A DNA stretch of 64,000 nucleotides, from the NCBI RefSeq assembly GCF_020171315.1, contig NZ_JAIUZP010000007.1:62001-126000 (forward strand), in the 5' to 3' direction. Both the position numbers and the translations under genes were made by a program. The stretch comes from Pseudooceanicola nanhaiensis (lineage in GTDB: Bacteria > Pseudomonadota > Alphaproteobacteria > Rhodobacterales > Rhodobacteraceae). This document shows, piece by piece, positions 5,452 through 61,823 of this stretch. Every line of letters begins with the position of its first letter. Within the stretch, counting starts at the first letter, position 1. The notes under the pieces were generated by a model. It made no database searches. It was not told the origin of the DNA and worked only from the letters and a program-made list of their open reading frames with translations.

Positions 5452-6195
5452 TCACGGGTTGCGGGCGAAGACCGGGAAGTAGAGCCAGCTTGGCAGGAAA
5501 CGCCCGAAGCGGAACAGCAGCGAGAAGCCGAAGGGGAAGGACCGCGAGAAGGTGTCACCGCACATATGCTCGAACACCTCGTGGGCGGCCTTCTCCGGCT
5601 CCATGATGGCGGGCATGTCGAAATCGTTCTTGGCGGTCAGCCGGGTCTTGATGAAGCCCGGGTTCACCAGCTGCACCTTCACGCCGGAATTGCGCAGATC
5701 CGCATGCAGGCTCTCTGCCAGCCCCATGAGACCGGCCTTGGTGGCCACGTAGGGCGCGGCACCGGGCAGGCCGCCAAAGGCGGTCAGCGAACTGGTGATC
5801 ACGATATGCCCCCGGTCGCGGGCCACGAAGGTCGGCAGCACGGCCCCCACGGCGCGCATGGCGCCGGTGAAGTTCACGTCGGCCATCGCCTCGGCCTGTT
5901 CGGGATTCCAGTCCTTCGCGCCGAAGGGCCAGTAGACCCCGGCAAGGTAGACCATGCCGTCGATCTCGCCGATGTGGTGCGCGGCGGCTTCCAGCGCGGC
6001 GCGGTCGGTCACGTCGACGGGGAAGATCGAGGCGCGCCCGGGCAGGCTGTCGGCCACGGCCTGCAGCGCGGTCTCGTCCCGGGCCGAGAGGATCACTTCC
6101 GCCCCCACGTTGCTCAACTGCCGCGCAAGCGCCGCGCCAAGGCCGTCGCTGGCTCCGATGAGCCAGTAGCGTTTGCCGGTCCAGTTCTCGAACAT
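5452..6195 (-). CDS. short-chain dehydrogenase/reductase, last gene of the RpoE-type operon
   Basis: The 247-aa product is a classical SDR. It has the NAD(P)-binding GASDGLGAALA glycine motif (residues about 14-24), the catalytic Ser in ITSSLTAFG, and the YVATK catalytic Tyr/Lys pair. The C-terminal end is hydrophobic (FGRFLPSWLYFPVF), suggesting membrane association. The substrate is unknown. It follows the DUF1365 gene by 59 bases on the same strand. From memory, the Rhodobacter sphaeroides RpoE-controlled operon likewise groups a flavin oxidoreductase, a DUF1365 protein and an SDR. A role in lipid modification under singlet-oxygen stress is therefore inferred. Confidence 0.9.
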   Translation of the reverse strand: MFENWTGKRYWLIGASDGLGAALARQLSNVGAEVILSARDETALQAVADSLPGRASIFPVDVTDRAALEAAAHHIGEIDGMVYLAGVYWPFGAKDWNPEQAEAMADVNFTGAMRAVGAVLPTFVARDRGHIVITSSLTAFGGLPGAAPYVATKAGLMGLAESLHADLRNSGVKVQLVNPGFIKTRLTAKNDFDMPAIMEPEKAAHEVFEHMCGDTFSRSFPFGFSLLFRFGRFLPSWLYFPVFARNP

Positions 6196-6254
6196 CGGGT
6201 GTCTCCTCAGCTGCTGTATCCCCCCTGAAACGCCGGGGGGCGGGGCCCGGTTCC

Positions 6255-7010
6255 CTAGCGGGAGACCTCCGCGGCGGGCGGTTCGGGGCGCCGGCGGTAA
6301 ATCGCCCCCTTCAGTTTCAGCTTCAGCGCCTGCCAGAAGATCAGCGCCAGTACACGGCGCGAGCCGACGGGGCGGCGCAGGCAGGCGGCGAGGATCCCGC
6401 GGCTGGTGAGCGGCTTGCGCGGCCCGGTCAGCGTGGCAATCAGCCCGCCGTTGCCGGCGGTGAAGTCGATGCGGATGCCGATCCGGTCGGGGCGAATGTC
6501 GAAGCGGAAGTCATAGCCGCCCTCGATCGGCTGGAACGGCGAGACGTGGAAGATCTTGCGCGCCTTCAGGCTGTCGGCGGCGGTGATCGGGCCCAGATCG
6601 TCACGGTGCACGAGGTAGGAATGCCGGTCGCCGAAGGTGTTGGAGACCTCGGCCACCACCACCCGCAGCCGGTCCTGCGCGTCATGGCAGAGCCAGAAGG
6701 ACACCGGGTTGAAAACATGGCCCAGCAGGCGCGGCTGCGCCAGCAGCAACACCTTGTCGCCCCCCGGCAGCCCGTGCGCGCTCAGCACCTCGCGCAGCCA
6801 TGCCACGCCACGCCCCTGTTTCGGCGCGCCGCCATGGTCGCTGTCCCGCAGCCCGGCCAGATTGGCGCGGTTGCGCGAGAAGAGGCGCGGGCGGTCATAG
6901 TCGGCTTCTGGGTCCACCAGGACATAGTCGATGGAATAGCGGAAGGCATTCTCCACCGCGCCCTTGCGGCCGTGCCATGTATGGCCGGGGATATGTTCGG
7001 GCCGGGTCAT
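6255..7010 (-). CDS. DUF1365 family protein
   Basis: The 251-aa protein begins MTRPEHIPGHTWHGRKGAVENAF and carries the DUF1365 hallmarks. These are FRYSIDYVLVD, LFSRNRANLAGLRDSDHG, LGHVFNPVSFWLCHD and VAEVSNTFGDRHSYLV. The family is found beside flavin amine-oxidase-like proteins and cyclopropane-fatty-acid-synthase-like methyltransferases, but its biochemical activity is not established. The ATG at 7010 lies 8 bases after the upstream gene's stop, implying translational coupling; a longer frame to 7136 runs back into that gene and is rejected. It is probably part of a lipid-modification pathway in this operon (inference from neighbours). Confidence 0.88.
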   Translation of the reverse strand: MTRPEHIPGHTWHGRKGAVENAFRYSIDYVLVDPEADYDRPRLFSRNRANLAGLRDSDHGGAPKQGRGVAWLREVLSAHGLPGGDKVLLLAQPRLLGHVFNPVSFWLCHDAQDRLRVVVAEVSNTFGDRHSYLVHRDDLGPITAADSLKARKIFHVSPFQPIEGGYDFRFDIRPDRIGIRIDFTAGNGGLIATLTGPRKPLTSRGILAACLRRPVGSRRVLALIFWQALKLKLKGAIYRRRPEPPAAEVSR

Positions 7011-7018
7011 CGTGGCGC

Positions 7019-8320
7019 TCACTCTGCGGCGACCGCGCTCTGGGCCGCCCGCGCGGCGATCCCATCCGCCACCGCATGGGCAGAGGCAAGGCCGTCCTCG
7101 TGGAAGCCGTTGCGCAGCCAAGCACCGCAGAACCACGTCCGGTTCGCCCCGTTCAGCTGGCGCAGCGCCTCCTGCGCCTGCAGCGCTTCGAGGTCATAGA
7201 CCGGGTGGCGCAGGATGGTCTCGTCATAGATCAACTCCTCCCGGATCGGGCGGGTGGAGTTGAGCGTGACGAAATGCGGATCGTCCATCGGGATCGGCTG
7301 GAGCGAGTTCATCCAGTAGGTCAGGTCGATCTCGTCGCCGGGCTTGCCCGCGACCTCGGTGTAGTTCCACGACGACCACGCCCCACGCCGTTTCGGCATG
7401 ATCGAGGCATCGGCATGCAGGACGACGCGGTTGGGCTGGTAGCGGATCGCCCCCAGCAGGCGGCGTTCCTCGGGCCCGGCGTCGGCCAGCAGGCGCAGCG
7501 TGTCGTCGGAATGGGTCGCCATGACCACCTCGTCGAAGACCTCCCAGGCGCCGTTTTCCTGCCGGATCTCGACGCCCAGAACCGTGCGGCTGACGGCGCG
7601 GACGGGGGCGCCCGTGCGGATCTCCACGCCGCGATGGCGCATCGCCTCTTCCAGCCGTTGGACGTATTCGACCGAGCCACCCTTCACCGTGTACCACTGG
7701 TGCTGGCCGGTGTGATGCAACAGGGCGTGGTTCTCGAAGAACTGGATCATGGCGCGGGCCGGGAAGTCGAGGATCTTCTCCTTGGGCGTGGACCAGATCG
7801 CGCCGGAGAGCGGCAGCAGGTAATAGTCCCGGAACCACGTGCCCATGCGCATCTTGCGCAGGAAGTCGCGGATCGAGAGGTGATCCTCCTGCGCCATCTC
7901 CAGCGCGGTGGCGTTGAACCGCATCACGTCGCGCAGCATGGTCAGGAAGCGCGGATCGAACATGTTCTTCTTCTGGGTGAAAACGGCGGCGAGGTCCTTC
8001 AGCCCGTACTCCAGCCGCCCGCCCTTCAGAGAGGCACCGAAGCTCATGGAGCTTTCGCAGATCGGCACGTCGAGGTCCTCGAAGAGATCGACGAGGTGCG
8101 GGTAGTTCGCCTTGTTGAAGACGATGAAGCCGGTGTCCACCGGCTGATCGCCGCGCTTGCCCGCCATCAGCGTGCGGGCGTGCCCGCCGAGGCGCGGCGC
8201 GGCCTCGATCAGCGTGACATGGTGGTGGCGCGACAGCAGGTAGGCCGCCCCCATTCCGGAGATGCCGGCGCCGATGACGGCAATGCGGCGCGCGGGGCCG
8301 GTCGGGGTCTGGGTGTCCAT
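7019..8320 (-). CDS. FAD-dependent amine-oxidase-like NAD(P)-binding protein
   Basis: The 433-aa protein has an N-terminal dinucleotide-binding motif (IAVIGAGISGMGAAYLLSR, about 13-31) followed by an E/R-rich FAD-binding segment (APRLGGHARTL). This is the layout of flavin-containing amine oxidases and desaturase-like proteins. It opens a three-gene minus-strand operon with DUF1365 and SDR genes. Its homologue in Rhodobacter sphaeroides is, to my recollection, RpoE-ChrR controlled and needed for furan fatty acid formation; that assignment is inference here. The ATG at 8320 follows GAGG at close spacing and fits the family N-terminus. The promoter at 8346-8375 matches the RpoE pattern and is only about 25 bases upstream, implying a very short leader. 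Confidence 0.88.
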   Translation of the reverse strand: MDTQTPTGPARRIAVIGAGISGMGAAYLLSRHHHVTLIEAAPRLGGHARTLMAGKRGDQPVDTGFIVFNKANYPHLVDLFEDLDVPICESSMSFGASLKGGRLEYGLKDLAAVFTQKKNMFDPRFLTMLRDVMRFNATALEMAQEDHLSIRDFLRKMRMGTWFRDYYLLPLSGAIWSTPKEKILDFPARAMIQFFENHALLHHTGQHQWYTVKGGSVEYVQRLEEAMRHRGVEIRTGAPVRAVSRTVLGVEIRQENGAWEVFDEVVMATHSDDTLRLLADAGPEERRLLGAIRYQPNRVVLHADASIMPKRRGAWSSWNYTEVAGKPGDEIDLTYWMNSLQPIPMDDPHFVTLNSTRPIREELIYDETILRHPVYDLEALQAQEALRQLNGANRTWFCGAWLRNGFHEDGLASAHAVADGIAARAAQSAVAAE

Positions 8321-8345
8321 GTCATCCTCACTCAGGTCTTTGATC

Positions 8346-8375
8346 CTGTTACGATGACAGGGGAAAGATGGATCG
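8346..8375 (-). promoter_or_regulatory. RpoE-type promoter of the FAD oxidoreductase operon
   Basis: The minus strand reads CGATCC, 18 bases, then TAACAG. The Rhodobacter RpoE -35 consensus is TGATCC. The spacing is identical to the candidate promoter of rpoE itself at 13166-13195. It lies just before the first gene of the operon. Confidence 0.65.
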
Positions 8376-8442
8376 AAAGTTTCTCTGTCCCGCCCGGCCT
8401 TTCTGCGCGGGGGCGTATGGCGCGGCACCCGCGGCACGCGGG

Positions 8443-8492
8443 CAAGAATTTTAAGCAAAATTCTTGCGAAAATTCTTACTCAAGAATTTTCG
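8443..8492. repeat. AT-rich palindromic repeat, locus 1
   Basis: Two adjacent inverted repeats: CAAGAATTTT/AAAATTCTTG around AAGC (8443-8466) and CGAAAATTCTT/AAGAATTTTCG around ACTC (8467-8492). It sits between the divergent FAD operon and mutL. The same half-sites recur at 16073, 33269 and 42074. Confidence 0.8.
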
Positions 8493-8614
8493 GCGCCCGT
8501 AGCAGGCCGTGGCGCAGGGCCCGCCGCGGTGCGGGGCGCGCGGGGGGGCATTCCGCGCGGTCTCGGGCAAAACCCGCGTGGCAGAATCGAAATCCCCATG
8601 CTAGATTTGGGGTC

Positions 8615-10543
8615 ATGTTGCGACCTGATCCCAAGATAAGCGAAAATCGCCCCGTCATCCGCCAGCTGGATGAGGCGGCGATCAACCGGATTGCCGCCGG
8701 TGAGGTCGTGGAACGGCCTGCCTCCGCCGTGAAGGAACTGGTGGAAAACGCGCTCGACGCGGGCGCGCGGCGGATCCATGTCACCATCGCGGACGGCGGC
8801 AAGACCCTGATCCGGGTCGAGGATGACGGCAGCGGCATTGCCCCCGCCGATCTGCCGCTGGCTCTGGCCCGCCACGCCACCTCGAAGATCGACGGCTCCG
8901 ACCTGCTGGCGATCCATTCCTTCGGCTTCCGGGGCGAGGCACTGCCCTCGCTCGGGGCGGTCGGGCGGCTGCGCATCACCTCCCGCGCCAAGGGCGAGGA
9001 GGCGGCAGAGATCACTGTCACCGGCGGTCGCATGGGTGAGGTCCGTCCTGCCGCGCTGAACGGCGGCACCGTGGTCGAATTGCGCGATCTCTTCTTTGCC
9101 ACGCCCGCCCGGCTGAAGTTCCTGCGCACCGACCGGGCGGAATCCCAGGCCGTGACCGATGTGGTCAAGCGCCTCGCCATGGCCGAGCCCTTCGTGGGCT
9201 TCACCCTGACCGACACCTCGAACGACGCCAGCCGCACCGTCTTTCGCGCGGATGCCGAAAACGGCGATCTCTTCGACGCTTTGCACCAGCGGCTGGCGAA
9301 TATCCTCGGCCGCGAGTTCGCCGAGAATGCGCTGAAGATCGACGCCACCCGCGAGGGGCTGCACATGACCGGCTACGCCGCCCTGCCGACCTATTCGCGC
9401 GGCGCGGCGGTGGCGCAGTATCTCTTCGTCAACGGCCGCCCGGTGCGGGACAAGCTGCTGACCGGCGCCCTGCGCGCCGCCTATTTCGACGTGCTGTCCC
9501 GCGACCGTCACCCGGCGGCGGCGCTCTTCCTCGACTGCGATCCGCAGCTGGTGGACGTGAACGTGCACCCGGCGAAATCCGAGGTGCGGTTCCGCGATCC
9601 GGGGCTGGCGCGCGGCCTCGTCGTCTCGGGCCTGCGCCATGCTCTGGCCGAGGCCGGGCACCGCGCCTCCTCCACCGTGGGCGGGGCGACGCTGGGCGCC
9701 TTCAGGCCCGAGCCTGCGGCCGACCACACGGGCAGCGCGCGGATCTACCAGATGGATCGCCCCTCGCTCGGCGCCCGCGGGGCGAGCTACTCCGGTCAGG
9801 CCCCTGCCGACTGGACGCCCGCGCCCGCCTATCCCGGCCGCGCCCCGGTGGAGATGACGCAGGCCTTCGCCGAGCCCGCCGCGCTTTTCGACGCGGGCAC
9901 CTCGGCCCGGGTGGAGCCCGTCATCGAGGATGTCCCGCAGGCGGATCACCGCCCGCTCACCGCCTATCCCCTTGGCGCGGCGCGGGCGCAGGTGCACGAG
10001 AACTACATCATCGCCCAGACCGAGACCGGCATGGTCATCGTCGACCAGCACGCCGCGCACGAGCGCCTCGTTTACGAGAAGCTGAAGGCCCAGATGGCCG
10101 AGAACGGCGTCGCCGCGCAGGCCCTGCTGATCCCCGAGATCATCGAGCTCTCCTCCGGCGACTGTGCCCGGCTGATGGAAGTGGCCGAGGACCTCGCCCG
10201 CTTCGGCCTGACGGTGGAGCCCTTCGGCGGCGATGCCATCGCCGTGCGCGAAACGCCCGCGATCCTCGGACGGGTCGACTGCAAGGCGATGATCCTCGAC
10301 ATCCTCGACGAACTGGAGGATCAGGGCGACAGCCAGACCCTTCAGGCGCGTATCGAGGCGATCCTCTCGCGGGTGGCCTGCCATGGCTCGATCCGCTCGG
10401 GCCGCCGGATGCAGGCCGAGGAAATGAACGCCCTGCTGCGCGAGATGGAGGCCACGCCCCTCTCGGGACAGTGCAACCACGGGCGCCCCACCTACGTGGA
10501 GCTGAAGCTCTCCGACATCGAACGGCTATTCGGACGGACATGA
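8615..10543 (+). CDS. mutL: DNA mismatch repair protein MutL
   Basis: MutL couples MutS mismatch recognition to strand incision and repair. The 642-aa protein has the GHKL ATPase motifs (NRIAAGEVVERPASAVKEL near residue 22, DDGSGI, GFRGEALPS). A variable linker follows (about 335-440), then a C-terminal dimerisation domain. DQHAAHERLVYE at 477-488 fits the DQHA-x2-E-x4-E metal-binding endonuclease motif, as expected in bacteria without MutH. ACHGSIRSG and CNHGRPTYVEL complete the C-terminal sites. The frame is open far upstream, but the ATG at 8615 begins the conserved N-terminus. rmuC overlaps by 4 bases (ATGA). Confidence 0.96.
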   Translation: MLRPDPKISENRPVIRQLDEAAINRIAAGEVVERPASAVKELVENALDAGARRIHVTIADGGKTLIRVEDDGSGIAPADLPLALARHATSKIDGSDLLAIHSFGFRGEALPSLGAVGRLRITSRAKGEEAAEITVTGGRMGEVRPAALNGGTVVELRDLFFATPARLKFLRTDRAESQAVTDVVKRLAMAEPFVGFTLTDTSNDASRTVFRADAENGDLFDALHQRLANILGREFAENALKIDATREGLHMTGYAALPTYSRGAAVAQYLFVNGRPVRDKLLTGALRAAYFDVLSRDRHPAAALFLDCDPQLVDVNVHPAKSEVRFRDPGLARGLVVSGLRHALAEAGHRASSTVGGATLGAFRPEPAADHTGSARIYQMDRPSLGARGASYSGQAPADWTPAPAYPGRAPVEMTQAFAEPAALFDAGTSARVEPVIEDVPQADHRPLTAYPLGAARAQVHENYIIAQTETGMVIVDQHAAHERLVYEKLKAQMAENGVAAQALLIPEIIELSSGDCARLMEVAEDLARFGLTVEPFGGDAIAVRETPAILGRVDCKAMILDILDELEDQGDSQTLQARIEAILSRVACHGSIRSGRRMQAEEMNALLREMEATPLSGQCNHGRPTYVELKLSDIERLFGRT

Positions 10544-54556: not shown

Positions 54557-54949
54557 TCAGCCCTGGGCGAGGAAGGCCGCCAGCAGGTCCGCCCGGCTGA
54601 GCATCCCGACAAGGGCGCCTTCGCTGGTGACGGGATAGCTGCGATAGGGCTCTGCGAGGAATCGTTCCGCCGCGGCGACGATATCCGTGTCCGCGTCCAG
54701 CGATTCGACCGCGCGGGTCATGTGGTCTGCCACGGTGTCGGACCAGCGTTGGTAATAGGCCGCGCTCAGCGCTGCCTTGAAACAGTCCTTCTGCGACAGG
54801 ATCCCGAGGATCGCCCCGTCCCGGTCCAGCACCGGCGCGGCGGAACAGCCGGTCTCGACCAGTTGCACCACGGCCTCCCGCATCGGCAGGTCCGGGGCGA
54901 GGGTCAGGGGCGAGTCGCGCGTGAAGCGGCGGATCGAGATCTCAGCCAT
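54557..54949 (-). CDS. CBS-domain pair protein, last gene of the nqr operon
   Basis: The 130-aa cytoplasmic protein consists of two CBS motifs (APDLPMREAVVQLVETGCSAAPVLDRDGAILGILSQKDC and ADTDIVAAAERFLAEPYRSYPVTSEGALVGMLSRADLL). It has no attached catalytic domain. Such Bateman modules bind adenine nucleotides or NAD and act as energy sensors. ATG 54949 follows GGGAGGGAAA, and nqrM overlaps its start by eight bases, so it belongs to the NQR operon. A regulatory role for the complex, or an independent one, is inferred only from this. Confidence 0.85.
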   Translation of the reverse strand: MAEISIRRFTRDSPLTLAPDLPMREAVVQLVETGCSAAPVLDRDGAILGILSQKDCFKAALSAAYYQRWSDTVADHMTRAVESLDADTDIVAAAERFLAEPYRSYPVTSEGALVGMLSRADLLAAFLAQG

Positions 54950-55118
54950 CGTTTCCCTCCCGGGCAAGGCGGCGCGGACAGGTGGGGCACATCCCCTTGC
55001 CGAGGCAGGCCGTCGCCTCGCAGGAGGTTTGCAGGCCACGCCCCTTCACGAGGTACCCGAGGCCAAGGCCGAGGCAGGCAAGCGCGATGACGGTGAGGGC
55101 GAGCAGGACCTCGATCAT
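54942..55118 (-). CDS. nqrM: NQR maturation protein NqrM-like (DUF539)
   Basis: NqrM is a small membrane protein needed to assemble the Fe centre between NqrD and NqrE. The 58-aa product starts MIEVLLALTVIALACLGLGL, a single membrane helix. It then has a cysteine cluster, LQTSCEATACLGKGMCPTCPRR, with four Cys in the C-terminal part like the C-rich tail of NqrM. The sequence is short and divergent from typical NqrM (C-G-G-L motif absent), so the name rests on size, Cys pattern and position 63 bases after nqrF. It overlaps the CBS gene by eight bases. Nothing else encodes in this gap. Confidence 0.75.
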   Translation of the reverse strand: MIEVLLALTVIALACLGLGLGYLVKGRGLQTSCEATACLGKGMCPTCPRRLAREGNDG

Positions 55119-55181
55119 CGTGTCACCGCGCGGCGGTCGGCCCGTGGCAAGAGGCGGGGGGTGATCCGGTCAGGCATCCTG

Positions 55182-56402
55182 TCAGGCTCCGAAATCATCG
55201 TTGTAGATCCGGTGACGCTCCACCCCGAAGCGGGTCAGCGTCGCGATCACCGCAGAGATCATCATCGGCGGGCCGCAGAGGTAATATTCGCAGGCATTGG
55301 GCGCGGGATGATCGCGCAGCGCATCTGCCACCCGTTCATGGATGAAACCGGTGGCCCCGGTCCAGCGATCGCCGGGGGCGGGGTCGGACAGGGCGGGCGT
55401 CCAGCGGAAATTGGGATGCTCCGCCGCGATGGCATCGAATTCCTCGGTATAGAACAGGTCGATGGCAGAGCGGGCGCCGTAGAAGTAGCGCATCTTGCGC
55501 TGCGTGCCGCGGCCCACCTGTTCGTGGATCATCGCTCGCAGCGGGGCCATGCCGACACCGCCGCCGATCAGGATCATCTCGGCCTCGGTGTCCTGCACCC
55601 GGAACTCGCCGAAGGGGCCGGAGATCGCCAGCGGATCGCCCGGTTTCAGCGAGAAGAGGTGGGAGGAGACGACGCCCGGCGGGATCGTGTCCTCTGCGCC
55701 GGCGGGCGGCACGGCGAGGCGGATGTTGAAGACCGCGCGGCCCACGTCTTCGGGGCGGGAGGCGATGGAATAGGCGCGCGTCACGGGCGCGGCAGAGCGG
55801 GATGACAGCGCACGCCAGCCCGCATCCTCCCATGTCTCGGCAAATCGGTCGGGCACCTCGATGTCCCGGAACGCCAGCCGGTAGGCGGGCGCCGTGAGCT
55901 GCATGAAGTAGCCTGCGTGGAAGTCCATCTGTTGGCCCTCTGGCAGGTCGAGGACCAGTTCGCGGATCAGCGGGGCCAGCATCCGGTTGGAGCGCACCGT
56001 GGCCTGCATCGTCTCGGCCGACAGCAGGTCGGGCGCCACCTCGACCGAGACCGGGCCCTTCACCGTCACCTGACAGGCGAGGCGCATCCCCGCCTTGCGG
56101 TCCTTGGCTGAAAGCAGCCCGCGCTCGGCCGCCAAGGCCTGTCCCGCGCCCGCGCCGGTGGCGGTCACCCGGCAGAGCCCGCAGGTGCCCTTGCCACCGC
56201 AGCCCGCCGGTATGGCGAACCCCGCGCCCTGCAGGCAGGAAAGCAGCGTCTCGCCGGTCTTGGCCTCGATCTCCTGCGTGCCGTTGAGGGTGATCGTGGC
56301 CGCGCTCTGCGGCAGCAGGCGCTCGCGGGCGACAAGCAGCGCCATGGTCAGCGCCAGCAGGAGCCCGAGGATGATCAGCGTGCCGAGGGCGATCTCGATC
56401 AT
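55182..56402 (-). CDS. nqrF: NQR subunit F, NADH-binding flavin/[2Fe-2S] protein
   Basis: NqrF takes electrons from NADH into the complex. The 406-aa protein has an N-terminal membrane helix (IALGTLIILGLLLALTMALLVA). A ferredoxin-like [2Fe-2S] domain has C-x5-C-x2-C in GCGGKGTCGLC and a fourth Cys in RLACQV. The reductase domain has an FAD motif (RAYSIAS), the NADH loop GGGVGMAPLRAMI and CGPPMM. Length matches V. cholerae NqrF (408). The ATG overlaps the nqrE stop by four bases (ATGA). Confidence 0.95.
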   Translation of the reverse strand: MIEIALGTLIILGLLLALTMALLVARERLLPQSAATITLNGTQEIEAKTGETLLSCLQGAGFAIPAGCGGKGTCGLCRVTATGAGAGQALAAERGLLSAKDRKAGMRLACQVTVKGPVSVEVAPDLLSAETMQATVRSNRMLAPLIRELVLDLPEGQQMDFHAGYFMQLTAPAYRLAFRDIEVPDRFAETWEDAGWRALSSRSAAPVTRAYSIASRPEDVGRAVFNIRLAVPPAGAEDTIPPGVVSSHLFSLKPGDPLAISGPFGEFRVQDTEAEMILIGGGVGMAPLRAMIHEQVGRGTQRKMRYFYGARSAIDLFYTEEFDAIAAEHPNFRWTPALSDPAPGDRWTGATGFIHERVADALRDHPAPNACEYYLCGPPMMISAVIATLTRFGVERHRIYNDDFGA

Positions 56403-57010
56403 GGGGCCCCCATCTGCGAGAAGGAGGCAAAGCCCAGCGACATCATCCCGGCCAGCAGGAAGGTGATCCCGAGGCCGCGCAGGCCCGCGGGCAGATCGGC
56501 ATAGGCCAGCCGCGTCCGCACGGCGGCCAGCATGGCGACGGCGATGGCAAAACCCGCCCCGCTGCCAAGGCCGAAGACCAGCGCCTCGACCGTGTCGTAG
56601 CGACGTTCCACCATGAAAAGCGACCCGCCAAGGATCGCGCATTGCACCGTCAGCAGCGGCAGGAAGACCCCGAGGCTGGCGTGCACCGAGGGGGCGAAGC
56701 GTTCCAGCAACATCTCCAGCATCTGAACGGTGCCCGCGATCAGTCCGATGAAGGCGATCAGGTTGAGGTAGGAGAGGTCGATCTCCGGCAGCCCGGCCCA
56801 GCTCCATGCGCCGGGGGCCAGCACGGCGGTATAGATCAGCTGGTTCAGCGGCACCGTGATCCCCATCACGCCGATCATGGCAAGGCCGAGGCCGATGGCG
56901 CTTTCCAGCCGCCGGGAGAGGGCAAGGAAGGTGCAGAGCCCCAGAAAGAAGGTCAGCGGCATGTTCTCGACGAACATGGCCCGGACGAAGAGCGTGGCGA
57001 GGTCCTGCAT
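56399..57010 (-). CDS. nqrE: NQR subunit E
   Basis: This integral membrane subunit with about six helices forms, with NqrD, the intramembrane Fe-S site. The 203-aa product keeps Cys26 (LGLCTFLALS), the same number as in V. cholerae NqrE, and the second cysteine in LTVQCAILGGSLF. The NMPLTFFLGLC and FGLGSGAGFAIAVAMLA segments are conserved. It overlaps nqrD by one base. Retention of both cysteines argues that the complex moves electrons across the membrane. Confidence 0.95.
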   Translation of the reverse strand: MQDLATLFVRAMFVENMPLTFFLGLCTFLALSRRLESAIGLGLAMIGVMGITVPLNQLIYTAVLAPGAWSWAGLPEIDLSYLNLIAFIGLIAGTVQMLEMLLERFAPSVHASLGVFLPLLTVQCAILGGSLFMVERRYDTVEALVFGLGSGAGFAIAVAMLAAVRTRLAYADLPAGLRGLGITFLLAGMMSLGFASFSQMGAP

Positions 57011-57672
57011 CAGCGGCCCTCCGGCACGTCGGGGGGGATCGTCTCGGGCGGTTCGGCCTGATCGGGCAGGACGCTGCGCAGCGCCCAGACGAGGCCTGCC
57101 AGCAGGAAGAAGGCAGAGGGCGCCAGCCGCATCAGGTTGAGCGGCGTGAACCAGCCGCCCTCCTCTGCCAGCGGCAGCACCGTCAGGCCGAAGAGCGTAC
57201 CGGCCCCGAAGAGTTCGCGGATTGCCCCGATGACGATCAGCACGGCGGAATAGCCCAGCCCGTTGCCAAGCGCGTCGATCATCGCGGGCAGGGGCGGGTT
57301 CTGGCGGGCAAAGCTCTCGGTCCGTCCCAGAACGATGCAGTTCGTGGTGATCAGCCCGACGAAGACCGAGAGCCTGAGCGAGATCTCGAAGAACCACGCC
57401 TGCAGGATCTGGTCGATCACGATGACCATGGAGGCCACGATGGCGATCTGCACGATCAGCCGGATCGCGTTGGGGATATGGCGGCGGATCAGGCTGACCA
57501 CCGCGGCAGAGAGCACCAGCACCACCGTCAGCGACACCGCCATGGTTACGGCCGTGTCGAGCGAGGTCGTCACCGCAAGCGCCGAACAGATGCCGAGGAT
57601 CTGCACGGTCACCGGGTTGCCCTCGACCAGCGGGCCCTTGAACGTGCGCAGGAGCGACGGGCGCGGGGGCAT
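57010..57672 (-). CDS. nqrD: NQR subunit D
   Basis: The integral membrane partner of NqrE. The 220-aa product has about six helices and Cys29 (ILGICSALAVTTSLDTA) at the V. cholerae position, plus the second Fe-S cysteine in FVGLITTNCIVLGRTESFA. The C-terminus is somewhat longer than in the family, with an acidic/Pro-rich tail (PPETIPPDVPEGR). It overlaps nqrC by one base. The sequence fits NqrD rather than RnfE because nqrA-C and nqrF accompany it. Confidence 0.95.
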   Translation of the reverse strand: MPPRPSLLRTFKGPLVEGNPVTVQILGICSALAVTTSLDTAVTMAVSLTVVLVLSAAVVSLIRRHIPNAIRLIVQIAIVASMVIVIDQILQAWFFEISLRLSVFVGLITTNCIVLGRTESFARQNPPLPAMIDALGNGLGYSAVLIVIGAIRELFGAGTLFGLTVLPLAEEGGWFTPLNLMRLAPSAFFLLAGLVWALRSVLPDQAEPPETIPPDVPEGR

Positions 57673-58472
57673 CAGAACTCTCCCCGTTTCACGGCGTCGA
57701 TCAGCGGCCCGTACCCCTGCGGCCCCAGCCAGAACCGCACCATGCGGGTCATGGCCGTGCTGGTCCGCGTGGCACCGGTGATGCCGTCGACCTCGTAGTC
57801 GGTCGTGGCCGGGCCACGGGCAACGGCAAAGCGCATCTCGCCCCGCTCGTCACGGAACTTGGTACCGGCAAAGCCCTGCTGCCAGGCGGGTTCCTCGATC
57901 CGGGCGCCAAGGCCTGGGGTCTCGGACTGGCCGGTGACGGTCAGGCCCGCGATGCTCTCCATGTCGCCGTTGATGGCGATCATCGCCTCGATCGGGCCGT
58001 TGTAGCCCGCGCCCGCGATCGGCAGCACCATCAGTTTCACCGCCTCGCCGTCGCGCAGCAGGTAGACCTGCGCGTAGTCGGGCCGCGTGCCGATCCCGGC
58101 AAGGTCCAGTTCCGGGCTGAGCGCGGTCCAGTTCGCCGTGTCGAGCAGCGCCGTCTCCAGCGTCTCGGGCGTGATCTCCTGCGCGGCGCGGCCCTGGGCC
58201 AAGTCGATCACCACGGTGGAGAGCTGCGCGCTGTCGCTGCTGCTCAGCAGGGCGGTCATGCCGGGAATGGCAGAGAGCAGCGCCTCCAGCCGAAGCTGCG
58301 TCTCTGCCGCGCGGTTGGCGGTCTGGATCGGGCGCAGCAGAACGGTGGCCCCGCTCACCAGCAGCGTGCAGACCAGCGCCGTGGCGAAGGCTACGAAGAG
58401 CGTCTTGCCCCGGCTTTCGTTCGGCAGGGCCAGCAGGCGTTTCCACGGGTTTGTCGGGGTCTGGTCAGCCAT
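57672..58472 (-). CDS. nqrC: NQR subunit C, covalent-FMN protein
   Basis: NqrC carries a covalently bound FMN in a periplasmic domain anchored by one N-terminal helix (TLFVAFATALVCTLLVSGATVLL, about 20-42). The 266-aa product has the flavinylation motif TGATRT with Thr235 (V. cholerae T225 equivalent). This requires an ApbE flavin transferase, which is not in the window. The GYNGPIEAMIAINGDMESIAGLTVTGQSETPGLGARI segment is the FMN-binding domain core. It overlaps nqrB by eight bases. Confidence 0.94.
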   Translation of the reverse strand: MADQTPTNPWKRLLALPNESRGKTLFVAFATALVCTLLVSGATVLLRPIQTANRAAETQLRLEALLSAIPGMTALLSSSDSAQLSTVVIDLAQGRAAQEITPETLETALLDTANWTALSPELDLAGIGTRPDYAQVYLLRDGEAVKLMVLPIAGAGYNGPIEAMIAINGDMESIAGLTVTGQSETPGLGARIEEPAWQQGFAGTKFRDERGEMRFAVARGPATTDYEVDGITGATRTSTAMTRMVRFWLGPQGYGPLIDAVKRGEF

Positions 58473-59241
58473 GTCGTCTGTTCCGTCTCCGCAGCCAGAG
58501 GGCGATGGATATCTCGTCGAAAAGCGGCGCCGCGAGGGAGGCGAGCAGCGCGGAAGAGACCGCGATCTGCACCGGCGCTGCATCCTGCCAGAAGGCGAGG
58601 AAGAGCGTGCAGAGCCCGCCGTAGAGCGCCCCGTTCAGCCAGCGGCCTAGCGGCGTGGTCGCGCTGGCCACCGGGTCTGCCACCAGCAGCGCCAGCCCGG
58701 CACAGACGGCGGGCATCGCAGCCCAGACGGGCGCCCCCGTGAGGGCAGCGAGGCCCAGCGTGCCGAGCGCGCCCAGGACCACCGGCCCGGGCAGCACCCC
58801 AAGGGCCAGCCCCATGGCCAGCATCGCCCAGGAGGCCCAGCCCACCTGTATCGCGAGGTCGGGCCAGGGGGCTGCCGGGAAGCCGAAGCCCATGAAGGCC
58901 AGCGTCACCGTGGCGGGGTTCAGCACGTTGCGGCCCCAGCCGCCGAAGGTCAGTTCCGCCGCGACCACGCCGAAGGTTGTCGAGAGCAGCAGCGCCACCG
59001 GCCCGAGGTCCTCGGGGGCCAGCACGGCCAGCGCCAGCGCCGTCAGGGCCCCGGCCAGCGAGGGCGGTTGCGCTCGGGCCAGCATCCAGACGAGGTGCCA
59101 GACACCCGCCACCACGAGGAAGACCGCCAGCCGCAGCAGGCCGAAGGGCCCGTCCAGCGCCAGCCACGTCACGGCCAGCGGCAGGGCCGAGATCAGCAGC
59201 AGTGCGGCCACCGTCTCACGATCCCAGAGGCCGCGGTTCAT
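58465..59241 (-). CDS. nqrB: shortened NqrB-like membrane subunit
   Basis: The 258-aa protein matches NqrB in its blocks GRNVLNPATVTLAFMGFGFP, LVADPVASATTPLGRWLNGALYGGLC and LLASLAAPLFDEISIALWLRRR. It is about 150 residues shorter than V. cholerae NqrB (415). After LNPATVTLAF the segment that should contain the S-G-A-T flavinylation motif is missing, and no other S/T-G-A-T occurs in the protein. It therefore probably lacks covalent FMN. Several helices are also shortened. NqrA/NqrB and NqrB/NqrC overlap (4 and 8 bases), so the frame and gene boundaries are firm. Confidence 0.88.
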   Translation of the reverse strand: MNRGLWDRETVAALLLISALPLAVTWLALDGPFGLLRLAVFLVVAGVWHLVWMLARAQPPSLAGALTALALAVLAPEDLGPVALLLSTTFGVVAAELTFGGWGRNVLNPATVTLAFMGFGFPAAPWPDLAIQVGWASWAMLAMGLALGVLPGPVVLGALGTLGLAALTGAPVWAAMPAVCAGLALLVADPVASATTPLGRWLNGALYGGLCTLFLAFWQDAAPVQIAVSSALLASLAAPLFDEISIALWLRRRNRRHG

Positions 59242-60503
59242 GGGGCGTCCTCCTCGGCGATCCGCTCCAGCAGGGCGGCGAAGAGCGCAGAGAGCCGCGG
59301 CTCGGCCCCGGTGACGTAATCCGCAAGGGCAAGGTCCTCGGGCAGGAGCGAGAGCGCGCCCAGCTTCCGGGCCGTCTCTGCATCGCCCGAGGCGATGGCC
59401 CGCAGCAGGGGAACGGCGGGCAGCGCGCCGCCCATGCTCTGCTCCAGCGCGGCGGTGGGGATCAGGGGCAGGGGCCGGGCCGCGTGGCTCAGCGCCGAGA
59501 GGAACCAGTGCCCGCGCCCGTGGGACGGGTGATGCGCCGTGACGGTCACCTGCCGGTCGGCCCCGAGGAGCCAGCGGGCAGGGCGGCCCTCCAGCAGGGA
59601 GCCGGAGAGGATCGTGTTCTGCCCCGGCCGCACATGCCCCTGACACAGGCCGCGCAGGTCGGCCCAGGGCTGACAGCGCAGCAGGCGTGCGTCCCGCAAC
59701 CCGGTGCCGGTCAGCGAAACGAGCCGCGTCTCGGGCAGCAGGCCGGTGTCGAGCAACGTGCCGATGGCGGCCACGTCCTCGGCGGCGATGTCCCAGACGG
59801 GGGCTTCTGGCGTTGCGGGGCGCTGGGCGTGGATGTGGAACCCGGCCAATCCCCAGGGGTGAACAGGGGCCGCGGGCAGCAGGCGCAGGCGCGGGCCCGC
59901 GTCCTGCACGGGCGCCGTCCCCGCGCGGTGGCAGAGGTAGACCGGCCCCTCTGTAAGCGCCATCAGCGCGGCGAGGCCGGAGGCGAAGGCCGCCTCCTGC
60001 CCCTCGATCGCGCGCAGGGGATCGGGCGCGCCGGGCCGCGTGTCGAGCGCCATGACGAAGATCGCGGCGGGTCGACGGGCCGGATCGGCCAGCCCGCCAA
60101 AGGGCCGCGCCCGCAGCAGGTGCCACAGCCCGGTCGCGCGCAGGTGCTCTGTCAGGCTCTGCGGATCGCGCTGATCGACGGGCACCGGTGGCCATTCGTG
60201 GCGGCCTGCGCCGGGTTCGTGAAACAGCGTCACCTGCCGCAGCCTGCGGGCGCTGTCGATGTCGAGCCGCGCCACCCGCCCGGCCATGGGCGCGCAGGTC
60301 GTCAGCCCGGCATTGTGCAGGTCACGGAACAGCGGTTGCCCCTGCGCGACGGTTTCGCCCTCCAGCGCCAGCGCCTCGACGCGAAGATCGCCGCTTGCGG
60401 GGATGACGAGGCTGGCCTCTGCGGTGATCTGGCGGTCGATGGTTCCGCCGGGCTGCGGCCCGGGGACGGAAATGCTCAATCCTTTTCGCCAGATACGCGA
60501 CAT
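59238..60503 (-). CDS. nqrA: NQR subunit A, divergent
   Basis: First gene of the operon. The 421-aa protein has the NqrA start RIWRKGLSISVPGPQPG and a biotinyl-like ALALEGETVAQGQPLFRD segment followed by APMAGRVARLDI. A C-terminal LLRAIASGDAETARKLGALSLLPEDLALADYV block is the NqrA counterpart. The usual C-T-F-V-C-P segment after it is replaced by ADYVTGAEPR, and the length is about 25 residues under the norm. Two ATGs exist; 60503 is preceded by GGAGG at eight bases. It is divergent from the cytochrome gene. NqrA in the standard complex is part of the quinone-site periphery. Confidence 0.88.
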   Translation of the reverse strand: MSRIWRKGLSISVPGPQPGGTIDRQITAEASLVIPASGDLRVEALALEGETVAQGQPLFRDLHNAGLTTCAPMAGRVARLDIDSARRLRQVTLFHEPGAGRHEWPPVPVDQRDPQSLTEHLRATGLWHLLRARPFGGLADPARRPAAIFVMALDTRPGAPDPLRAIEGQEAAFASGLAALMALTEGPVYLCHRAGTAPVQDAGPRLRLLPAAPVHPWGLAGFHIHAQRPATPEAPVWDIAAEDVAAIGTLLDTGLLPETRLVSLTGTGLRDARLLRCQPWADLRGLCQGHVRPGQNTILSGSLLEGRPARWLLGADRQVTVTAHHPSHGRGHWFLSALSHAARPLPLIPTAALEQSMGGALPAVPLLRAIASGDAETARKLGALSLLPEDLALADYVTGAEPRLSALFAALLERIAEEDAP

Positions 60504-60569
60504 TCCATTCGCCTCCGTGATTGGGGCAACATTGGCGGCGCATTGCCGGAGATAAAAGAGGTATCTGAG

Positions 60570-60635
60570 ATGCAAGTTGAATTGGGCAATTCCGAATGCA
60601 AGCATTGCGGTATTCCGCCGAATTCGCCCCGCTGA
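60570..60635 (+). CDS. candidate 21-residue small open reading frame with C-x2-C
   Basis: ATG 60570 follows AAGAGG (60555-60560) by nine bases. The frame runs 22 codons to TGA 60633-60635, and the peptide centre is ECKHCGIPPNSP. Codons are unusually AT-rich (TTG, AAT, GTT, CAA). It precedes the cytochrome ATG by 21 bases. It could be a leader peptide or a metal/heme-binding peptide, but it also overlaps three inverted repeats (60579-60618) and may be chance. Confidence 0.3.
   Translation: MQVELGNSECKHCGIPPNSPR
60579..60618. promoter_or_regulatory. three tandem inverted repeats between nqrA and the cytochrome gene
   Basis: Back to back: GAATT-gggc-AATTC (60579-60592), AATGC-aa-GCATT (60595-60606) and GCGG-tatt-CCGC (60607-60618). 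They may be regulator sites or small hairpins controlling the divergent promoters. Confidence 0.35.
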
Positions 60636-60656
60636 TTTCAAAGAAAGACAGCTGCC

Positions 60657-61823
60657 ATGTTCCGTCGCCCCCCGGTTTCCAAGTTGCTTGCCCTGTCCCT
60701 TGCCATCGGAGGGATCGCCCTTGCGACGCTCGCCCCGGCGCAGGAAACGGGACCGTCAGAACCGCCTGTCGGCACCTATGTGCTGCCCCCCAGCGGGCCG
60801 TTTTCGCCGGACAAGGTGCAGATCCCGAACATGCGGGCGATTTCCTCGTGGATACGTTCGGGCCATGCCGATGCCTCGGGCGAGGCGTTCAGCCACTGGG
60901 ACGAGGAGGGCAGCATCCCGCCGGTCTGTTCCACCTGCCACTCGGGCACGGGGTTCCGCAGCTTCCACGGCCTCGACGGGTCAGAACCGGGCCTGCCGGC
61001 AGAGCCGGTGCCGACCGGCTCGGTCGTGGATTGCGCCACCTGCCACGATCCGAACATCTCTGACATCACCGAGATCACCCTGCCCTCCGGCGTGGTGCAT
61101 CCGGTGATCGTCTCGGACGCCGCCTGCACGACCTGCCATCAGGGCCGGGCCGCGGGCGCCACCCTCACCAAGGCCCTTGGCGACAAGGCCGAGGACACGC
61201 CCGATCCGGAGCTGGGCTTCGTCAATCCGCACTACGCGCTTGCCGCCGTCACGATGCTGGGGGGCTATGGCGCGGGGGGCTACCACTACCCGGACAAGAC
61301 CTATACCGGGCGGTTCCTGCACGCCAAGCCGGTCGCGACCTGCCTGTCCTGCCACGATCCGCACAGCCTCGAAGTGGCGCAGGACACCTGCCTGACCTGC
61401 CACCAGACCGGAGACCCGCAGGCGATCCGCATCTCGCGGCAGAGCTATGATGGCAGCGGCGACCTGTCGAAGGGCATCCATGCCGATATCCGCAGCCTCT
61501 CGGATCAGCTGATGGCGGAGATCGAGGCCTATGCCAAGGAGGTCGCGGGCGTCGCGATCGTCTATGACGGCGGGCATTACCCCTATTTCTTCGCGGACGC
61601 GAATGGGGATGGCCTTGCGGATACCGCAGATGGCCGCAGCGTCGCCTACAAGAGCTGGTCCCCGCGGCTGCTCAAGGCGGCCTACAATTGGAAATTCGTG
61701 AATGCGGATAAGGGCATCCACGTTCACAATCCGCATTACGCATTGGAATTGCTCTACGATTCCGCGGAATCGCTCGCCGGGCCGACGGGGACGGATTTCG
61801 GCGCGCTGAATTACCTGCGCTGA
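60657..61823 (+). CDS. secreted pentaheme cytochrome c
   Basis: The 388-aa protein has a signal peptide (SKLLALSLAIGGIALATLAPAQ, then ET) and five c-heme motifs CxxCH at Cys91, 126, 157, 229 and 245. These are arranged in two groups: 91/126/157 and 229/245. The C-terminal 120 residues have many histidines (NPHYALELLY, HVHNPHYAL) that could be distal ligands but no further CxxCH. It has no membrane helix beyond the signal, so it is periplasmic or peripherally bound. It is divergent from nqrA. Function is unknown; the multiheme type suggests transfer to or from a dehydrogenase or reductase. Confidence 0.88.
   Translation: MFRRPPVSKLLALSLAIGGIALATLAPAQETGPSEPPVGTYVLPPSGPFSPDKVQIPNMRAISSWIRSGHADASGEAFSHWDEEGSIPPVCSTCHSGTGFRSFHGLDGSEPGLPAEPVPTGSVVDCATCHDPNISDITEITLPSGVVHPVIVSDAACTTCHQGRAAGATLTKALGDKAEDTPDPELGFVNPHYALAAVTMLGGYGAGGYHYPDKTYTGRFLHAKPVATCLSCHDPHSLEVAQDTCLTCHQTGDPQAIRISRQSYDGSGDLSKGIHADIRSLSDQLMAEIEAYAKEVAGVAIVYDGGHYPYFFADANGDGLADTADGRSVAYKSWSPRLLKAAYNWKFVNADKGIHVHNPHYALELLYDSAESLAGPTGTDFGALNYLR

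Follow-up and report, generated by a model that had tools for sequence, protein, structure and literature searches.

A 64,000-nucleotide stretch of the Pseudooceanicola nanhaiensis genome (contig NZ_JAIUZP010000007.1, positions 62,001 to 126,000; hereafter the window) carries an operon for a variant of the Na+-translocating NADH:quinone oxidoreductase (NQR) with a short form of the NqrB subunit and, back-to-back with it, a gene for a secreted pentaheme c-type cytochrome. The complex is probably an NADH:cytochrome c oxidoreductase derived from NQR, in which NqrC is the exit point for electrons. In ordinary NQR, electrons go back through the flavin mononucleotide (FMN) and the riboflavin of NqrB to ubiquinone. 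In the complex described here, electrons from NADH would enter at the flavin adenine dinucleotide (FAD) and [2Fe-2S] cluster of NqrF, and would pass through the [2Fe-2S] cluster between NqrD and NqrE to the covalent FMN of NqrC on the periplasmic side; because the return half is dismantled in NqrB, the exposed NqrC FMN would then hand the electrons to the periplasmic pentaheme cytochrome, which would deliver them to some periplasmic acceptor. NqrB would be left with a chiefly structural role, or as a vestige of the ion path. We infer the step from NqrC to the cytochrome, the outward direction of flow and the existence of an acceptor.

The short NqrB and the retained path to NqrC

The losses in NqrB are seen directly in the sequence, as are the gene set, the residues retained in other subunits and the gene pairings described below. 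The window NqrB scores 67.5 bits, far below the NCBIfam cut-off of 414, and its predicted model starts at residue 48 of Vibrio cholerae NqrB; the N-terminal helices that form the quinone and inhibitor pocket (PMC12174285) are thus absent, and they are missing from all 25 aligned relatives as well. The segment with the covalent-FMN threonine is also deleted: the block around the FMN site is 36 residues long versus 80, and the [ST]GA[ST] motif is absent from NqrB in 106 of 107 aligned rows, the single match (locus L136; labels beginning with L denote loci and those beginning with G genomes) lying near residue 30, away from the FMN site. G140 is substituted or falls in a gap in 26/26 rows, and is G in 3/107. 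Because the 25 relatives have the same form, the short NqrB reflects a deletion, and sequencing error was ruled out as its cause. Locus L053, where the contig ends inside nqrB, and the frameshifted copy L058 were excluded from alignments A1 and A2.

The known Na+ path is altered too. Its conserved acidic residues in NqrB are D52, E157 and E273 (Hau 2023). The equivalent of E157 is never E in the 107 rows, the position of E273 lies in a gap of both NqrB alignments, and the equivalent of D52 is D in the window and in 58/107. Since the window protein has lost E157, E273 and the F338/F342 gate, Na+ pumping of the V. cholerae type is doubtful.

To judge from the cofactor residues of NqrF, NqrD/E and NqrC, electrons have an intact path from NADH to the periplasmic flavin. 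Each of the four NqrF cysteines is present in 103 of 104 rows, the two NqrD cysteines in 103 and 105 of 105, and the NqrE cysteines in 103/103, and the FMN-site residue of NqrC is Thr in 99 and Ser in 4 of 107. NqrC falls slightly below its NCBIfam cut-off (137 vs 144 bits, TIGR01938), and NqrA far below (221 vs 505 bits), the latter aligning to residues 5-309 and 337-445 of V. cholerae NqrA. In a tree of NqrF, the short-type (104 rows) and canonical (18 rows) proteins are split by one branch with a value of 100 in the Shimodaira-Hasegawa-like approximate likelihood ratio test, obtained by a quick method; two of the 20 canonical loci were omitted for want of a complete NqrF, and the placement of L121 is meaningless because of its extreme branch length.

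These results bear on an earlier sequence-only reading of the window, which had called nqrA to nqrF, an nqrM-like gene, a CBS gene and a divergent cytochrome with five CxxCH motifs. All of these genes were found in their places. Its description of both NqrA and NqrB as aberrant holds for NqrB, given the deletion common to 25 relatives, but was too strong for NqrA, in which all three Pfam domains are present; its statement that NqrC to NqrF keep their cofactor sites agrees with residues that are nearly invariant over 103 to 107 sequences.

Linkage to the pentaheme cytochrome and its other partner

Relatives were collected with a pattern drawn from short NqrBs, and the 80 loci analysed are the best 80 of the 204 found. 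The cytochrome gene is divergent from nqrA in 77 of the 80; the exceptions are two contig ends (L123, L129) and an insertion (L136), in which an open reading frame (ORF) with an IS240-type transposase domain lies directly upstream of nqrB and replaces nqrA and the cytochrome gene. Short NqrB, defined by one contiguous match with E 1.6e-13 or better (27 of 45 matching genomes), occurs in 27 of 198 genomes of the family. The neighbourhoods of the 26 other short-NqrB genomes among these 198 partly overlap the 80 loci, so that the two counts are not independent; 22 of the 26 have the cytochrome gene divergent from nqrA, one as a decayed copy. In one of the remaining four the contig ends, and the cytochrome is on another contig. 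The other three are L056 (G012), with a tetraheme c-type protein and pieces of an FAD-flavoprotein at the cytochrome's place; L063 (G108), with an EB_dh protein containing one CXXCH there; and L060 (G036), in whose neighbourhood neither cytochrome nor stand-in was found. A weak cytochrome match on another contig of G012 (E 6e-12) was not counted. Across the 198 genomes, the cytochrome is present in 24/27 with short NqrB versus 9/171 without (two-by-two counts 24, 3, 9 and 162; Fisher p 2e-20, relatedness ignored), and none of 20 canonical nqr loci (that of the same genome and 19 others, 10.6 to 19.1 kb each) has any ORF with at least two CXXCH motifs in the fetched flanks. Taken together, these data show that linkage to the cytochrome is far above chance, and that this is a conserved gene system and not a local oddity.

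Variant arrangements were also recorded. At L187, a tetraheme protein lies at least 1.2 kb from a short-NqrB operon in which nqrA is undetectable; at L058 (G013), the operon and the cytochrome gene are both broken, which looks like joint decay; and one contig of Roseivivax sediminis carries two short-NqrB operons (L119 and L148), each with its own divergent pentaheme cytochrome.

The cytochrome has an N-terminus of the Sec type (by inspection). Besides five CXXCH motifs, it has extra histidines that are shared by the NQR-linked rows (H70, H192, H222 and H236 in 99/99; H357 in 98/99, with one gap), and all five are also present in 11/11 rows that are not NQR-linked; the rows counted were picked for having five CXXCH. 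Five CXXCH motifs and five invariant extra histidines give ten candidate ligands for five hemes, which suggests an electron carrier whose hemes are probably all bis-His. Among known proteins, NrfA, the ammonia-forming nitrite reductase, shares the five hemes and the PF02335 match over the C-terminal half. A Foldseek search with the AlphaFold2 model gave no match at E 0.001; in a further structural look at the model, NrfA ranked first. Unlike in NrfA, all five motifs are CXXCH, and CXXCK is absent from the window protein and from all 110 family rows. Variants of NrfA with CXXCH at the catalytic heme exist, and for this reason the five extra histidines weigh more against an NrfA identity than the missing CXXCK does. 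NrfA nitrite reductase was thus rejected as an identity, there being no catalytic CXXCK heme and five invariant candidate distal histidines instead, and so was membership of the MmcA/octaheme tetrathionate reductase family, since neither the methano7heme nor the octaheme models of NCBIfam matched at E 0.1. An EF-hand-like DxNGDGxxD loop follows the last heme (window 61580-61625, residues about 309-325, by eye) and is perhaps a calcium site. A DNA pattern for tandem CXXCH motifs found no match across the same genome, the pattern being too narrow to be informative.

The cytochrome also occurs with a different partner. In six of the nine family genomes that have it without short NqrB, and in G788 from a phylum sample, its gene is divergent from one for a protein with Ferric_reduct, FAD_binding_8 and NAD_binding_1 domains, in the same layout as nqrA and the cytochrome; Pfam confirmed the ferric-reductase/NOX-like domain make-up in all seven proteins. 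This single protein, with a ferric-reductase membrane domain in place of the NQR subunits, is absent from the window. No partner gene was evident for the cytochromes of G087 and G119 or for the second copy of G047. In a tree of the cytochrome, the ferric-reductase-linked rows form one clade (support 100/99), with the second G047 copy inside it, drawn beside eight NQR-linked rows by a poorly supported join (81/32). The phylum sample of 398 genomes has the cytochrome in seven, all of the same family; neighbourhoods were newly fetched for G788 and G881, and G859 and G904 were left out. By these domain assignments, one cytochrome family is encoded beside two different membrane machines that oxidise NAD(P)H. 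Proteins of the ferric-reductase/NOX type transfer electrons outward from NAD(P)H; that the cytochrome family also pairs with such a protein supports outward flow from NADH more strongly than any other observation.

Another setting was seen at L175 (G007; 5466-9185), where genes for an octaheme tetrathionate reductase family protein and a cytochrome b561 come after that for the pentaheme cytochrome, possibly a quinol-linked version. The octaheme protein (TIGR04315) is found in 12/198 genomes and lies near the cytochrome, by coordinates, only in G007.

Where the electrons go

It should be noted that several observations weigh against an outlet from NqrC to the cytochrome. NqrA and NqrB are kept, though neither is obviously needed if electrons flow outward, and G141 of NqrB is retained in the window and in 69/107 rows. 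Three short-NqrB genomes (those of L056, L063 and L060) have no pentaheme cytochrome, the relatives are not independent of one another, and the bis-His assignment rests on conservation, the cytochrome model being weak (mean predicted local distance difference test score, pLDDT, 68). Moreover, the window NqrB has all four riboflavin residues (T162, N200, N203 and D346), and because of this the NqrC FMN could still reduce the riboflavin of NqrB. Quinone might then still be reduced at a remodelled site, with the cytochrome as an accessory branch or as a separate donor or acceptor. Direct contact of this kind between NqrC-type and NqrB-type flavins has been proposed for two-gene Nqr/Rnf-like complexes that have no NqrB flavinylation site, and the four residues are retained in most of the 107 rows. 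They are not retained in every relative, however: N200 is G or S in 10/26 rows and N203 is substituted in 10/26, so that riboflavin binding is not constant. Given also that the pocket helices are missing in all 25 aligned relatives and that the cytochrome is linked in 77 of 80 loci, continued quinone reduction appears unlikely.

The same chain could be run in the opposite direction, from a periplasmic donor through the cytochrome, NqrC, NqrD/E and NqrF to NAD+, driven by an ion gradient. The steps are reversible in principle, and Rnf is described as able to run backwards (PMC12174285). However, the other partner of the cytochrome family is of an outward-moving type, the loss of Na+-path residues from NqrB removes the known way of powering uphill transfer, and no periplasmic-dehydrogenase-like family was seen flanking the 80 operons (families in at least five loci within 5 kb per side, partly identified); reverse flow is accordingly judged quite improbable. 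We regard it as very unlikely that the pairing reflects shared regulation only, for instance in a low-oxygen regulon, with no direct electron transfer between complex and cytochrome. Boxes of the FNR type, with at most two mismatches, do occur in 28/77 divergent regions versus 4.7 expected from dinucleotide shuffles (reversed pattern 1/77; the regions are related), and this enrichment makes low oxygen a likely operating condition for some members of the group. In the divergent region of the window, the closest match has three mismatches and is not a good box. Against regulation as the whole explanation, the pairing persists across several families of Rhodobacterales and Rhizobiales, it is specific to the short NqrB type (0/20 canonical loci), and another secreted heme protein substitutes for the cytochrome in two of the three exceptions.

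Transfer from NqrC to the cytochrome is thus the reading that we retain for the window. For the group as a whole, we lean slightly towards a widespread quinone-free NADH:cytochrome module, in which NQR would have been cut at its midpoint, with the return half and the known Na+ path dismantled, and which would be interchangeable with a NOX/ferric-reductase-type protein around the same cytochrome family.

Locus layout, distribution and relation to known systems

The six subunits NqrA to NqrF were assigned with Pfam and NCBIfam; all lie within one operon (Table 1), and adjacent nqrA-F genes overlap by 1 to 8 bases. Among the 80 loci, a homologue of the nqrM-like gene is present in 67 and the CBS gene in 75. 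The window nqrM-like protein has no match above cut-off in Pfam or NCBIfam; Pfam NqrM does recognise its small counterpart at the genome's canonical nqr locus. An apbE gene is present in 70/80 relatives, usually between nqrF and nqrM (63). The window operon is without one (nqrF-nqrM junction, 55119-55181), and the two apbE genes of this genome belong to its canonical nqr and rnf loci. The cytochrome gene is followed downstream by an amidase gene (PF01425, 62076-63563) and then a second amidase-like ORF (by eye).

Table 1. Genes and intergenic region of the short-type nqr locus, in window coordinates
Feature	Positions	Strand	Description
nqrA	59238-60503	-	421 amino acids; divergent NqrA; Pfam NQRA_N, NQRA_2nd and NQRA_SLBB above cut-off
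nqrB, short form	58465-59241	-	258 amino acids; membrane core without N-terminal quinone-pocket helices or FMN-threonine segment
nqrC	57672-58472	-	266 amino acids; FMN_bind PF04205; FMN threonine T235 within TGAT
nqrD	57010-57672	-	220 amino acids; Cys29, Cys112; above TIGR01939 cut-off
nqrE	56399-57010	-	203 amino acids; Cys26, Cys124; above TIGR01940 cut-off
nqrF	55182-56402	-	406 amino acids; [2Fe-2S], FAD and NADH domains; TIGR01941 420.7 bits (cut-off 295)
nqrM-like gene	54942-55118	-	58 amino acids; single hydrophobic stretch and cysteine cluster; named from place and cysteine pattern
two-CBS-domain gene	54557-54949	-	130 amino acids counted from ATG; PF00571 81 bits
nqrA/cytochrome divergent intergenic region	60504-60656		153 bases
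secreted pentaheme c-type cytochrome	60657-61823	+	388 amino acids; five CXXCH; NrfA-like C-terminal half; no CXXCK

The operon is the third of the NQR/RNF type in this 4.8 Mb genome, after the canonical nqr operon on contig C1 and the rnf operon on C4. Near the latter (C4:553000-571000, L008), about 6 kb away, is a NifH/frxC-family gene that could be nifH or a bacteriochlorophyll gene. The nearest relative among the best 80 of 204 is Maritimibacter alkaliphilus (L087), with NqrB 91% identical; Celeribacter strains (L096, L098 and L102) have the operon too. In 385 genomes of the class, one-piece matches to short-type NqrB were found in three: the same genome; G448, of the same family, with the cytochrome divergent on the same contig; and G313, of another family, which has a divergent short-type form and undetectable NqrA. 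Besides Rhodobacterales, the genus names among the relatives point to Rhizobiales (such as Martelella, Nitratireductor, Shinella, Mesorhizobium, Pelagibacterium, Microvirga and Aquamicrobium), and the pairing spans several families. The short NQR is carried by many alphaproteobacteria, mostly Rhodobacterales, nearly always back-to-back with the cytochrome.

Two possible associations in the 198 genomes were rejected. One was that short NqrB serves canonical NQR as an accessory; both forms are present together in 3/198 without association, and canonical NqrB is absent from 24/27 short-NqrB genomes. The other was denitrification as a general electron sink: NosZ is found in 7/27 short-NqrB genomes versus 47/171 others and NapA in 5/27 versus 25/171, which shows no co-occurrence, and the same genome has neither NosZ (E 1e-50) nor NapA (E 1e-100) at the thresholds used. 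In 15/80 loci, a Na+/H+ exchanger homologue is encoded no more than 5 kb away (Pfam was checked on three of the 15). In 14 loci it is no more than 170 bases from the cytochrome gene, co-directional in 11 (L099, L119, L125, L135, L137, L142, L148, L149, L154, L155, L156, L159, L165 and L166 are the 14); this neighbour may hint at ion coupling, though in a minority of loci.

Compared with canonical Na+-NQR of the V. cholerae type, the operon has the same six subunits in the same order, the nqrM-like gene and, in most relatives, ApbE, together with the cofactor residues of NqrF, NqrD/E and NqrC, the membrane core of NqrB and, in the window, its riboflavin site. It differs in an NqrB without the FMN-threonine segment, the quinone-pocket helices, E157, E273, F338 and F342, in the linked pentaheme cytochrome, and in a separate branch of the NqrF tree. 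It is not RNF, which has RnfB and RnfC where the window operon has NqrF and NqrA. With the two-gene Nqr/Rnf-like complexes (Meheust 2021, PMC8238504; Huang 2024, PMC11334425), it shares an NqrB/RnfD-like protein without a flavinylation site and an NqrC/RnfG-like flavoprotein. Those complexes, described in these sources mainly from Actinobacteria and the candidate phyla radiation, are proposed there to carry electrons one way from NAD(P)H to an extracytosolic acceptor. However, their NAD domain is fused to the NqrB-like part, whereas the window operon has six subunits, an NqrB without PF00175 and a putative outward path through NqrF, NqrD/E and NqrC. The system is thus an NQR variant whose first half is like NQR and whose outlet resembles those proposed one-way systems, yet it is neither, because the quinone half of the one and the two-gene architecture of the other are not found. 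No earlier description of the arrangement was found in the open-licence PMC literature, supplements lying outside that scope; tables of eLife 2021 may hold such loci.

Methanosarcina Rnf with MmcA (Gupta 2024, PMC11024163), which the sequence-only reading had offered as a precedent, likewise joins an NQR/RNF-type complex to a co-encoded multiheme c-type cytochrome as electron outlet. The precedent stands as a functional analogy, but does not extend to the cytochrome itself: MmcA is described there as a heptaheme protein related to octaheme tetrathionate reductases, and the window protein has five hemes, its structural model resembles NrfA, and it does not match the model of that family. The search for co-occurrence of short NqrB with the cytochrome, which that reading had put forward as a check, came out in its favour, and homologous operons have the cytochrome as a rule and do not lack it. 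Overall, its interpretation is partly supported.

The coupling of electron transfer to ion transport in NQR and RNF is unsettled. In one current model, Na+ passage takes place in NqrB and is triggered by reduction of its FMN (Hau 2023). The lineage described here is a natural version without the NqrB FMN and without the quinone-pocket helices, in which path residues are altered and the earlier steps appear intact, and a measurement of ion pumping would test that model directly. Since NqrD, NqrE and NqrF exceed the NCBIfam cut-offs, automated annotation would call them ordinary NQR, and NADH:quinone metabolism may be misassigned in genomes that have the short form alone. If electrons do leave at NqrC, these bacteria would have a route from NADH to the periplasm that does not involve quinone.

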